The position numbers and the translations under genes are program-made. A stretch of 46,653 nucleotides of DNA from Peptococcaceae bacterium (GTDB taxonomy: Bacteria; Bacillota; DSM-12270; Thermacetogeniales; Thermacetogeniaceae): NCBI GenBank assembly GCA_023249405.1, contig JAHFCR010000020.1, forward strand, positions 1 to 46,653. Direction: 5' to 3'. The notes under the pieces were generated by a model. That model made no database searches. It had not been told where the DNA came from and saw only the letters and a program-made list of their open reading frames with translations. Positions 29,476 through 32,920 of this stretch are shown one piece after another. Position 1 is the first letter of the stretch, and every line of letters starts with the position of its first letter.

Positions 29476-29503
29476 TTGATTAGCCCGGTAATTCGCATAT
29501 AAT
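29476..29503 (+). promoter_or_regulatory. Sigma-A promoter of the HicBA-like operon
   Basis: TTGATT and a consensus TATAAT are separated by 16 bases. The predicted start site falls at the beginning of the GTAGCTAC repeats, so a repressor bound there would block initiation. Confidence 0.7.
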
Positions 29504-29507
29504 AGAA

Positions 29508-29534
29508 GTAGCTACGGTAGCTATCGTAGCTACA
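29508..29534 (+). promoter_or_regulatory. Triple 9-bp repeat, likely operator
   Basis: Three back-to-back units, GTAGCTACG, GTAGCTATC and GTAGCTACA, cover the presumed start site and end at the AAAGGAGG ribosome-binding site. Each core GTAGCTAC is itself palindromic. Nine-base spacing places the sites on different faces of the helix, which suggests a cooperative binder. Autoregulation by the downstream antitoxin-like protein is inference. Confidence 0.6.
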
Positions 29535-29547
29535 AAGGAGGCTTATT

Positions 29548-29994
29548 ATGAGCACAACTGGCCAAAACGCTCAAAAGTTCAGTTATAATGTTAAACAGAC
29601 CAAAAATGAGTACTCGAAGGTCAATAATCTGGCGCTACGAGGATTTGAGGTTTGTACTTATAAAGATGAAAAAGATTCTAAAGAAGTTGTAAGTCACATT
29701 AGAAAGACAATTTTTGATTACCTTCTGAGCCGTGTGACTTTTACGATCAACGAGGTATACGATGAAGAGATGGACGGCTGGACCGTCGCTGTTCCTGAAA
29801 CTGATCTATACGGCGAAGGCGCCACCAAAGAGGACGCCATTAAAGACCTGATTTATAGTATTCATGAGTATATCTCGATCTATCAGAATTCAGATTTTCT
29901 TTCACAGCACGAACCTGCGGATAAGCAGGCCGCCATTCTCAGACTCATGCGCTGCGAGAATGATGATGAAATACAGAAAATGTTGGGCCTGTAA
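29548..29994 (+). CDS. HicB-like antitoxin-type protein
   Basis: A 148-residue protein behind AAAGGAGG at six bases. Residues about 70-115 (TFTINEVYDEEMDGWTVAVP, then a Gly-Glu-Gly turn and a helix beginning TKEDAIKDLI) match the partial-RNase-H HicB fold. The N-terminal 65 residues are charged and unlike classical HicB. The C terminus lacks an obvious ribbon-helix-helix or helix-turn-helix domain. Two bases separate it from the HicA-like gene. Gene order is antitoxin first, the reverse of classical hicAB. Function as an antitoxin is inferred from fold, size and pairing. Confidence 0.65.
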   Translation: MSTTGQNAQKFSYNVKQTKNEYSKVNNLALRGFEVCTYKDEKDSKEVVSHIRKTIFDYLLSRVTFTINEVYDEEMDGWTVAVPETDLYGEGATKEDAIKDLIYSIHEYISIYQNSDFLSQHEPADKQAAILRLMRCENDDEIQKMLGL

Positions 29995-29996
29995 CG

Positions 29997-30236
29997 ATGC
30001 CACCACGCTTTGATCACGGAGATATCCGCCGTTTATTAAAACATTTTGGGTTTAAGCACATGAGCCAGGCCAGTTTTATCTATGTTGGTCAAACATTTGG
30101 CGCTAATAGAACTGTAAAATTTGACTATCATTCTGACCATACGCAACTCAAAGTTGGTACGGCTGCGCAAATAGCTAAATCTTTAGGCTTCAAAGATCAA
30201 CAGGCCATGAAGAACTACTTCATGGACAACCTTTAG
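29997..30236 (+). CDS. HicA-like toxin-type protein
   Basis: A 79-residue basic protein with the HicA pattern: an N-terminal helix ending in KHFGFKHMSQ, a strand, then KVGTAAQIAKSLGF, the family's LKxGTLxxILxxxG element. HicA toxins are double-stranded RNA-binding-fold mRNA interferases whose catalytic histidine follows a conserved GS. Here that place reads ASFIY, so the histidine appears to be missing. It may be inactive, use another residue, or belong to a related non-nuclease family. It starts two bases after the upstream stop with no clear ribosome-binding site, implying coupling. Confidence 0.6.
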   Translation: MPPRFDHGDIRRLLKHFGFKHMSQASFIYVGQTFGANRTVKFDYHSDHTQLKVGTAAQIAKSLGFKDQQAMKNYFMDNL

Positions 30237-30615
30237 CCTGTTGCCGTCAGTAAATATTTTCAGGAGTGGTAATAATAATCTCGATCTCGTTAATAGTTGG
30301 ATGTGACAAGGACTTTAAATTAACCGGATGCCCTTTCCGGGGGTTCACCATCCACTGAAAAGGAGTGCCCCGCTCTTTTAGAAGCCGCCCTGGAGATTGC
30401 TGCTGCAGGCGGCCATAACATCCCGCTGGTGGGGCCGCCGGGAACAGGCAAAATGCTGCTCGCTCCTTCGCCTCCTTGACGGGGTGGCCCTGCGTGCCGT
30501 TCCCACCGCGCCAGTCATACATGAACGCTACCTGCAAATCTGTAGGGCGCATGAAAGCCAGCCACTCTCCGTCGTGAGATCGGGCCGGGTTCGTTGCTGA
30601 TGTCTGACCGTATCG
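30237..30615. other. Intergenic segment with decayed coding fragments
   Basis: No intact gene is visible. On the + strand it holds the comM relic listed separately. On the minus strand one continuous 101-codon frame runs through it. Its two ends look protein-like and each contains a GHPV tetrapeptide, while its middle is merely the antisense of the comM relic. The ends may be pieces of one lost gene into which the comM fragment was inserted, but I recognise no family. Confidence 0.4.
30387..30464 (+). pseudogene. Relic of a second comM Walker-A region
   Basis: This 78-base stretch aligns without gaps to 32000-32077 in comM. It encodes [15 protein letters not shown] and [11 protein letters not shown], that is, the ATPase P-loop. 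Ten bases differ (about 87% identity), eight of them synonymous. That pattern suggests the copy diverged as a functional gene before decaying. Similarity stops abruptly at both ends. No start, stop or flanking comM sequence is present. Confidence 0.8.
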
Positions 30616-30909
30616 TCAAGGGTGCTTGGTAATCGTCAAAATTGTAATATGGTCCTTTTCCGGACCGTAACACCAGAATATCCGGTAGGCCGCAGGAGTT
30701 GCCTGTTCGACATAGGCCTCGAATACTTTTTCTCCCCGGGGTCCTTTCAGGGTTGTAAATTCGTGAGTCTGAAGCCCTTTATGCCGGGGGTTTTCAGCTA
30801 ACAGACAAAGCCCCTTACTCACAGCCTTATATCTTTTATTCAGACCGCGATCGGACTTGAGAATATTTAACTGATTCCTTGCCTGCTCAGTGAGATATAT
30901 CACAAACAT
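30616..30909 (-). CDS. RelE/ParE-family toxin
   Basis: A 97-residue basic protein. It has an N-terminal TEQARNQLN helix and a strand-rich core with HEFTTLKGPRGEKVFEAYVE followed by AAYRIFWCYGP. The C-terminal ITILTITKHP is typical of a ParE/RelE-like family often paired with a roughly 90-residue antitoxin of the type found upstream. Members inhibit ribosomes or gyrase; the target cannot be told here. It starts eight bases after the antitoxin stop without a strong ribosome-binding site, so expression is probably coupled. Confidence 0.8.
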   Translation of the reverse strand: MFVIYLTEQARNQLNILKSDRGLNKRYKAVSKGLCLLAENPRHKGLQTHEFTTLKGPRGEKVFEAYVEQATPAAYRIFWCYGPEKDHITILTITKHP

Positions 30910-30917
30910 GTCCGTAA

Positions 30918-31196
30918 TTACAGCTCTCCCAGGTCAAGACGGGAGATTTTATCCTCGGAGGCATCCTTAATCCCCTTAAGAACCGATTCCATGGCATCCC
31001 TGTTCTGATAGAGCCATAGTTCGGAGGCGGGGATTTCCACGACAGGTTGCAAAAGAACTTCTCCCCGCTCATTCTTGTAAAGGCGCACCCTCTTGTATCC
31101 CCCCATCAGTTCACCCAGGGTAAGCCTGTTGCGTTCGTCTATCGTCCGGGTATCAATCTCTTTGAACTCATCATGGATCATAAAAGTATTCTCCAT
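30918..31196 (-). CDS. Antitoxin partner of the RelE/ParE-like toxin
   Basis: A 92-residue acidic protein. The N-terminal half (TRTIDERNRLTLGELMGG) resembles an AbrB/SpoVT-like DNA-binding element. The C-terminal half (IPASELWLYQNRDAMESVL, then an acidic tail) is the likely toxin-binding part. The ATG is chosen because GGGAGGTG lies six bases before it; an upstream frame extension would overlap the promoter. A promoter with an inverted repeat lies directly upstream, as expected for an autoregulated module. Confidence 0.75.
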   Translation of the reverse strand: MENTFMIHDEFKEIDTRTIDERNRLTLGELMGGYKRVRLYKNERGEVLLQPVVEIPASELWLYQNRDAMESVLKGIKDASEDKISRLDLGEL

Positions 31197-31217
31197 TTGA
31201 TGCACCTCCCAAAAAAC

Positions 31218-31246
31218 ATAATACCACATCGCCCTAAATGGGTCAA
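31218..31246 (-). promoter_or_regulatory. Sigma-A promoter of the RelE/ParE-like module
   Basis: TTGACC and TATTAT are separated by 17 bases. The -10 ends about 20 bases before the antitoxin start codon. Confidence 0.7.
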
Positions 31247-31366: not shown

Positions 31367-32920
31367 GTGCTCGGTATCGTGAACTGCTGTTGCTGCCTGG
31401 GAATGAAGACGCACTTCGTCCGGGTGGAGGTGGACGTCTCCCCCGGTCTGCCGGCGTTCAATATTGTAGGGTTGCCCGATACGGCGGTCAGGGAATCCAC
31501 CGAACGGGTGCGCGGCGCGATCAGAAACGCCGGGCTGGAGTTCCCCCTGAAGCGGATCACCGTCAACCTGGCGCCTGCGGACCTGAAAAAGGAGGGCGCC
31601 CTGTTCGACCTGCCGATCGCCGTCGGTATCCTGACCGCCACCGAGCAGATAGCCCAGGAACAGGTGGCCCGGTTTTTGATGGTGGGGGAGTTGTCTCTGG
31701 ATGGCAGCGTCTGCTCCGTTCCGGGGATTATCCTGATGGCGGGAGATATCGCCGCTGAGCGCCCGGGCGCCGCTTTCATCGTCCCCCTGATCAATCTGGA
31801 AGAGGCCTCGCTGGCGCCTGGTATTCAAGTATACGGCGGTGGTCACCTGGCGGAAATAATCTCCTTCCTGCGCGGCCAGAGAGAGATTGCCACCGGCGAC
31901 ACCTGCGACGAGGAGAGGCGTGCGGCCATGCTGAGCGGCGGTGCCGCCGGCTTCAGTCTCGATTTCTCGGAGGTCAGCGGTCAGGAAAAAGTCAAGCGCG
32001 CCCTGGAGATTGCGGCCGCGGGCGGCCATAATATCCTGCTGGTGGGGCCGCCGGGCACGGGTAAAACGCTGCTCGCACGCCGGTTGCCATCCATACTGCC
32101 GCCGATGAACTGGGCGGAATGCCTTGAGGTCACCAAGATCTACAGCGTGGCCGGCCTGCTCCCCCAGGACAGCCCCGTGATCACTGCCAGGCCCTTCCGG
32201 TCGCCCCATCATACCGCCTCGGCGGTCAGCATCATCGGTGGTGGCAGGACGCCTCATCCGGGGGAGATCAGCTTTGCCTCCCACGGCATCCTGTTCCTGG
32301 ACGAACTGCCCGAATTCAACCGAGATGTGCTGGAGGCCCTGAGGGAGCCGCTGGAGGAGAACATGGTCACCGTGGCCAGGGCTGCGGGAGCGTTTACCTA
32401 TCCGGCCAACTTCATCTTCGTTGGCAGTATGAATCCCTGCCAATGCGGCTTTCTCGGCGACCCCAAGAAGACCTGCACCTGCACTCCCTATCAGGCGCAG
32501 CACTACCGCAACCGGATCTCCGGCCCCATCCTGGACCGCATCGATCTGCAGGTGGAGGTGCCGCGGCTGGAACTTGCCGAACTGGCCAATCACAGCCAGG
32601 GAGAAACTTCGGCGGAGATCAGAAAAAGAGTGATCACGGCTCATCAAATAGCGCAGACACGCTTCCAGGACGAAGGGATCATCAACAATGCCGAGATGAA
32701 GGGCCGTCAGATCAAAACCTTCTGTAAACTGCAGCCGGAGCCCCAGGAACTGCTGTACAAGATCTTTCAGAAGTTCGGCCTCAGCATGAGAGCCCTGGAC
32801 CGGGTGCTCAAGGTATCCCGGACGATTGCCGATCTGGCCGGCGCCGAACAGATCGCGCCCCTGCACCTGGCTGAGGCGGTGCAGTACCGCTGCTTCGACC
32901 GTCCCCTCTTCTCTAATTGA
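31367..32920 (+). CDS. comM: YifB/ComM family Mg-chelatase-like AAA+ helicase
   Basis: A 517-residue ComM, a hexameric helicase that promotes branch migration during natural transformation. The N-terminal Lon-substrate-binding-like domain has VEVDVSPGLPAFNIVGLPDTAVRE. Walker A is GPPGTGKTLLARR near residue 225, Walker B FLDELPEFNRDVLE near residue 310, and the cysteine motif NPCQCGF...CTCTP near residue 355. The start is GTG behind a weak GTGAGG; the N-terminal LGIVNCCCCLGM aligns with the usual LAKVxSxALxGL. It is divergent from dprA, whereas the two are usually co-directional. Confidence 0.96.
   Translation: MLGIVNCCCCLGMKTHFVRVEVDVSPGLPAFNIVGLPDTAVRESTERVRGAIRNAGLEFPLKRITVNLAPADLKKEGALFDLPIAVGILTATEQIAQEQVARFLMVGELSLDGSVCSVPGIILMAGDIAAERPGAAFIVPLINLEEASLAPGIQVYGGGHLAEIISFLRGQREIATGDTCDEERRAAMLSGGAAGFSLDFSEVSGQEKVKRALEIAAAGGHNILLVGPPGTGKTLLARRLPSILPPMNWAECLEVTKIYSVAGLLPQDSPVITARPFRSPHHTASAVSIIGGGRTPHPGEISFASHGILFLDELPEFNRDVLEALREPLEENMVTVARAAGAFTYPANFIFVGSMNPCQCGFLGDPKKTCTCTPYQAQHYRNRISGPILDRIDLQVEVPRLELAELANHSQGETSAEIRKRVITAHQIAQTRFQDEGIINNAEMKGRQIKTFCKLQPEPQELLYKIFQKFGLSMRALDRVLKVSRTIADLAGAEQIAPLHLAEAVQYRCFDRPLFSN

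Follow-up and report, generated by a model that had tools for sequence, protein, structure and literature searches.

The closest described relatives of the locus analysed here are the hicBA modules of Class 5, in which the gene order is reversed and HicB carries an N-terminal Phd/YefM domain; in the same classification, a C-terminal Shared Domain on HicA defines Class 6 (Gerdes 2024, PMC10865869). The HicA toxins reported so far are RNases (PMC7180214). In known HicAs, toxicity or RNase activity depends on a histidine at the start of strand 2, His24 (PMC3969222, PMC12297915), and it is close in space to a second histidine, His40, which follows strand 3 (PMC12297915, PMC3969222). His40 is dispensable in gonococcal HicA, whereas His29 is needed there though it is not universally conserved (PMC12297915). 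The position of His40 is therefore not normally catalytic, and the requirement for His29 implies that the active site of HicA is not fully defined. Among related antitoxins with described operators, TGTACA forms the core of the YefM and Axe operators, with a spacing of 12 (PMC7730913).

Here we describe a reversed pair of this kind from a Peptococcaceae bacterium. The window, that is, the whole stretch of DNA that was analysed, comprises 46,653 nucleotides. Judged from sequence, the pair is probably, with confidence a little better than even, a chromosomal type II toxin-antitoxin (TA) module of the reversed hicBA type (Class 5), autoregulated and encoding a HicA-type toxin with a shifted active site.

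Gene order and domain composition

Two open reading frames on the forward strand, separated by 2 nt, encode an antitoxin-like protein followed by a HicA-like protein (Table 1), so that both the order and the coordinates given in the original prediction are borne out. This tight linkage with hicB upstream is that of Class 5. The pair has a GC content of ~40%, compared to 55–65% in the flanking dprA and comM genes.

The antitoxin passes the curated cut-off of PF12910 (PHD_like) by a wide margin, and all 12 antitoxin relatives tested match the same family, while three of the 12 also match PF02604 (PhdYeFM_antitox) weakly, with a best E of 0.008. When the two halves of the antitoxin family were compared with canonical HicBs by hhalign, the C-terminal half matched the four HicB sequences used, consistent with the partial RNase H domain of HicB (Prob 91.9, E 7e-7), and the N-terminal half did not (Prob 0.1). 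Taken together, the Pfam matches and the hhalign comparison of the halves identify the 65-residue extension as a Phd/YefM-type DNA-binding part, as in Class 5, and the remainder as HicB. The protein had been described as HicB-like with a charged N-terminal extension and no obvious C-terminal DNA-binding domain; the latter point stands, but the extension is itself the DNA-binding part, of Phd/YefM type and within PF12910. The toxin is a mono-domain HicA without a C-terminal extension and hence without the Shared Domain, again as in Class 5. Because reversed order combined with a Phd/YefM N-terminus has already been published as Class 5, the architecture is not new, and we rejected the idea of a new gene order.

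Table 1. Features of the hicBA-like locus, with positions in the window
Feature	Position	Strand	Basis
Promoter-like TTGATT-16-TATAAT	29476..29503	+	10/12 consensus matches
Operator-like array of three palindromes, GTAGCTA(C/T), spaced by exactly 9 bp; downstream of the -10 box and upstream of the ribosome-binding site	29508..29533	.	Direct sequence
Ribosome-binding site GGAGG of hicB	29537..29541	+	Direct sequence
HicB-like antitoxin, 148 aa, PHD_like (PF12910)	29548..29994	+	PF12910 E 2.2e-19, 70.3 bits, cut-off 27, residues 13-146
N-terminal Phd/YefM-type DNA-binding part, ~aa 13-58 (the charged extension)	29584..29721	+	Within PF12910 match; PF02604 in relatives
HicB (degenerate RNase H-like) domain, ~aa 67-115	29746..29892	+	hhalign vs canonical HicBs
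HicA-like toxin, 79 aa, group II	29997..30236	+	A8 vs canonical HicA profile Prob 96.9, E 1.8e-10; PF07927 alone 12.2 bits
A25-S26-F27-I28-Y29, at the site of the canonical catalytic turn GSHxx; catalytic His replaced by Phe	30069..30083	+	Direct sequence, profile alignment
His45 codon, end of predicted strand 3; proposed catalytic His	30129..30131	+	Invariant in groups II + III, 21/21 toxins
LKxGTxxxIxxxLG helix-2 element, LKVGTAAQIAKSLG, residues 51-64	30147..30188	+	Direct sequence; aligned to canonical HicA helix 2

The window also contains a second small gene pair, on the reverse strand (30616-30909 and 30918-31229; 97 aa and 103 aa), which by appearance encodes a RelE-like toxin and its partner and for which no Pfam match was found up to E 10. 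It is kept beside comM in a same-genus genome (G001, locus L173; 94% and 90% identity), but we did not find it there in the other relatives checked. A 78-nt comM fragment (30386-30463 and 31999-32076 of the window; 88% identity to the intact gene) is located between the hicBA pair and this second pair and records an insertion or duplication here.

Pairing, distribution and selection

Our census covered 399 genomes belonging to one phylum, 64 of which contain PF12910. At 69 of the 74 PF12910 loci examined, a HicA-like gene lies directly downstream on the same strand, and the toxins of these 69 loci comprise group I (49 loci), group II (12 loci), to which the window belongs, and group III (eight loci). 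An independent search with the group II toxin profile returned 23 places in 19 of the 399 genomes; of these group II/III toxin matches, 19 immediately follow a PF12910 gene, and the remainder consists of three degraded copies and one solitary gene. The search for homologous pairs proposed with the original prediction thus finds the pairing conserved, with the pair occurring in nine or more families.

In the antitoxin tree, partners of group I toxins are divided from those of groups II and III (SH-aLRT 95), and the group II partners lie on one side of a branch with a support of 86. Toxin and antitoxin distances are correlated across groups II and III (Spearman 0.65, 0/1000 permutations) and also within group II alone (Spearman 0.44, 14/1000 permutations).

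Several loci deviate from the simple two-gene layout. At L136/L198 and at L199 (about 1347-1737), a group III-like toxin gene lacks an intact upstream antitoxin; at L199, 49 residues left over from the C-terminus of an antitoxin precede it. Fusions of the HicB-like and HicA-like parts into a single ORF occur in two same-genus genomes (L005, about 1150-1740, and L009/L112), with the Phd-type N-terminus mostly missing. The genome from which the window derives also encodes a group I hicBA whose HicA has an in-frame insertion of ~43 residues, placed in the loop that precedes helix 2 (L062, G000:C107), and a group III pair with a toxin broken after residue ~64 (L091, G000:C89).

Compared to the same-genus orthologue L002, which was the only match in an antitoxin search of genome contigs, pN/pS is 0.103/0.742 for the toxin and 0.108/0.644 for the antitoxin, values that indicate strong purifying selection on both genes. 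This selection, together with the clade-wide conservation, led us to reject chance ORFs. In the genome containing L002, the hicBA pair is found in another context, and the pair at 30616-31229 stays beside comM; a different context in a genome of the same genus fits a mobile module. No relatives of the window toxin were found in the plasmid collection, and none of a group II toxin in the plasmid and phage collections. Viral contigs yielded none for group II or III toxins and six for group I.

Toxicity is so far putative for every member of these groups, and a few toxin-like genes are solitary (L136/L198, L199). Both observations would be compatible with a small regulatory operon outside the TA systems, consisting of an autoregulated DNA-binding protein and an RNA-binding partner. 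We regard such an operon as very unlikely, as the patchy distribution (19/399 genomes), the low GC content relative to the flanks (40% vs 55–65%), the differing contexts in two genomes of the same genus, and the frequent broken copies are typical of TA modules.

Relation to HicA and the histidines of the toxin

The window toxin falls below the cut-off of the Pfam HicA family (12.2 bits against PF07927, cut-off 27), which one group III toxin passes (30.7 bits), and NCBIfam and PADLOC gave no match. Homology to HicA is evident from profile comparison. The alignments of group II (A2) and group III (A3) match each other (hhalign Prob 99.2, E 6.9e-20), and the joint profile of 15 aligned sequences (A8) matches the canonical HicA profile with the values given in Table 1, while the antitoxin profile, used as a control, does not match HicA (Prob 0.2). 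Groups I and II do not match directly (Prob 0.6) and are linked through canonical HicA only. The canonical profile consists of 13 sequences from the same phylum, collected by a pattern requiring GSH; it is therefore unusable for counting how many HicAs retain the canonical histidine, and this share was taken from papers instead. The LKxGTxxxIxxxLG element recognised in the original prediction is indeed present, as LKVGTAAQIAKSLG.

Searches of PDB sequences with the window toxin and with profiles A2 and A3 gave nothing useful, TTHA1913 (1whz) appearing only at E 1.3, and matches of group I to designed beta-trefoils were dismissed as repeat-driven artefacts. The AlphaFold models have low confidence owing to their two-row alignments (pLDDT 53.7 for the toxin and 39.9 for the antitoxin) and are too poor for a fold search. 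As a consequence, the presumed closeness of His45 to the face that binds RNA is taken from the alignment and from published work on HicA.

The proposal that ASFIY replaces the GSH site is confirmed by profile-profile alignment, in which A25-S26-F27 of the window toxin align with Gly-Ser-His; the catalytic histidine by which the HicA family is recognised is thus Phe27 here. In groups II and III, 0/21 toxins have a histidine at the start of strand 2, and its absence from all of them indicates that the change is not a local mutation. A histidine at strand 3 is present in 21/21, His45 in the window, which is an alternative conserved histidine of the kind that the original prediction suggested looking for. 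By profile-profile alignment His45 corresponds to the histidine of the VPxH motif in canonical HicAs, and its position is that of His40 in known HicAs. The only invariant columns in A8 are G31 and H45. The automatic count also flagged the histidine of GGSIH in the fused proteins of L005 and L112, which is located a few residues further along and is not aligned with the catalytic position.

Of 41 readable group I toxins, 38 have the histidine at the strand-2 start and 18 an HKEI-type second histidine. The group I toxins without the former (L076, L086, and L093) have SDYW or SKDEI replacing TDHW.

With the GSH motif gone, the locus might be viewed as a decaying HicAB whose toxin has lost its active site. 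Decay is hardly credible and was rejected, because the entire clade, which spans no fewer than nine families, shares the loss, and the toxin is under purifying selection (pN/pS 0.10/0.74). Instead, the loss of the strand-2 histidine, the invariance of the strand-3 histidine, and the closeness of the latter position to His24 lead us to propose that the strand-3 histidine took over. In this clade of reversed hicBA modules, comprising groups II and III, the catalytic histidine, originally at the start of strand 2, may have been relocated to the end of strand 3, with the RNase site rebuilt on the same small fold; we advance this tentatively, as a reading with slightly less than an even chance of being correct. 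The RNase activity and toxicity of the window toxin and the role of His45 are predictions from sequence.

Two other readings of the same residues were considered. The module could be of the same class with a non-cleaving toxin, which blocks translation through binding to RNA or the ribosome, the invariant histidine contacting RNA or the antitoxin. The missing canonical histidine in all 21 group II/III toxins would suit such a toxin, as would the lack of any other classical catalytic set among the invariant positions, which are G31 and H45 only. We nevertheless consider it unlikely, since a single histidine that is invariant down to about 21–25% identity is what is expected of a catalytic residue, and reported HicAs are RNases (PMC7180214). 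The non-nucleolytic RNA-binding pair offered in the original prediction likewise leaves the invariance of one histidine unexplained. Alternatively, catalysis might be retained through other residues, such as a conserved Arg, Lys, or Tyr, and His45 could be structural only. R38, K41, and Y44 occur often in group II, and the need for the non-universal His29 in gonococcal HicA (PMC12297915) shows that the active site is incompletely defined. None of the three is conserved in group III, unlike the histidine, which makes this alternative improbable.

The takeover of catalysis by the strand-3 histidine, our preferred reading, bears on the original suggestion that the pair forms a TA subfamily of its own whose active site differs. 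The conservation pattern supports that suggestion, in that the histidine between beta1 and beta2 is absent, another histidine is invariant, and the pairing is kept; the gene order and the N-terminal extension are not new, as these already define Class 5.

Promoter region and comparison with known systems

Upstream of hicB is a promoter-like sequence (Table 1), although matches of such quality also occur by chance (two were found and 2.4 expected); the L002 orthologue is also preceded by TATAAT. At 13 of the loci tested, including the window and L002 and counting L107, which is the same locus as L002, a palindromic hexamer recurs unchanged at a spacing of 9. Other spacings listed occur at one locus each at most, and the shuffle mean is 0.16. 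By a looser measure of self-alignment, lag 9 is the single best lag at 22 of 49 group I loci and four of 13 group II loci, compared to 3% in shuffles, and group III shows little 9-bp periodicity (1/8).

These features suggest a working model. The Phd-type domain would dimerise on the array of 9-bp palindromes and thereby repress the operon, while the HicB domain would cover the active face of the toxin. Toxin freed from its partner would then bind and cut RNA, with His45 possibly serving as the catalytic residue in place of the histidine lost from the start of strand 2; it could also be structural.

RNA cleavage by HicA is poorly understood beyond one histidine, and a clade without that histidine and with another nearby constitutes a natural test of the mechanism. 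Annotation based on the GSH motif, on Pfam HicA, or on NCBIfam misses the toxins of groups II and III. The antitoxin of the window is a full-length member of PF12910 (70 bits), a family described as a RelE/RelB antitoxin; in the sampled phylum its partner is HicA-like at 69/74 loci, not RelE, and there the family is better described as a HicA-partner antitoxin family.

The operator-like array resembles the yefM-yoeB and axe-txe operators (PMC7730913), where a Phd/YefM-type antitoxin is likewise associated with a pair of TGTACA-core palindromes at the promoter, and TGTACA repeats are present in the group I relatives. It differs in having a spacing of 9 bp rather than 12 bp, and the repeat in the window is GTAGCTAC. 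Canonical HicAB modules (from E. coli and B. pseudomallei, and HicAB3 of Y. pestis) share with the window pair a HicA-like toxin, as judged by profile comparison, and a HicB domain in the antitoxin. In contrast to them, the window pair has the opposite gene order, its toxin lacks the GSH catalytic histidine, and the DNA-binding domain of its HicB is at the other end and from another family. With Class 5 hicBA (PMC10865869) the pair has in common hicB preceding hicA, a Phd/YefM-type N-terminus, a mono-domain HicA, tight linkage, and predicted autoregulation. Compared to the description of that class, rather than to a list of its members, the window toxin is set apart in two ways: no histidine occupies the strand-2 start, and an invariant one is present at the end of strand 3.
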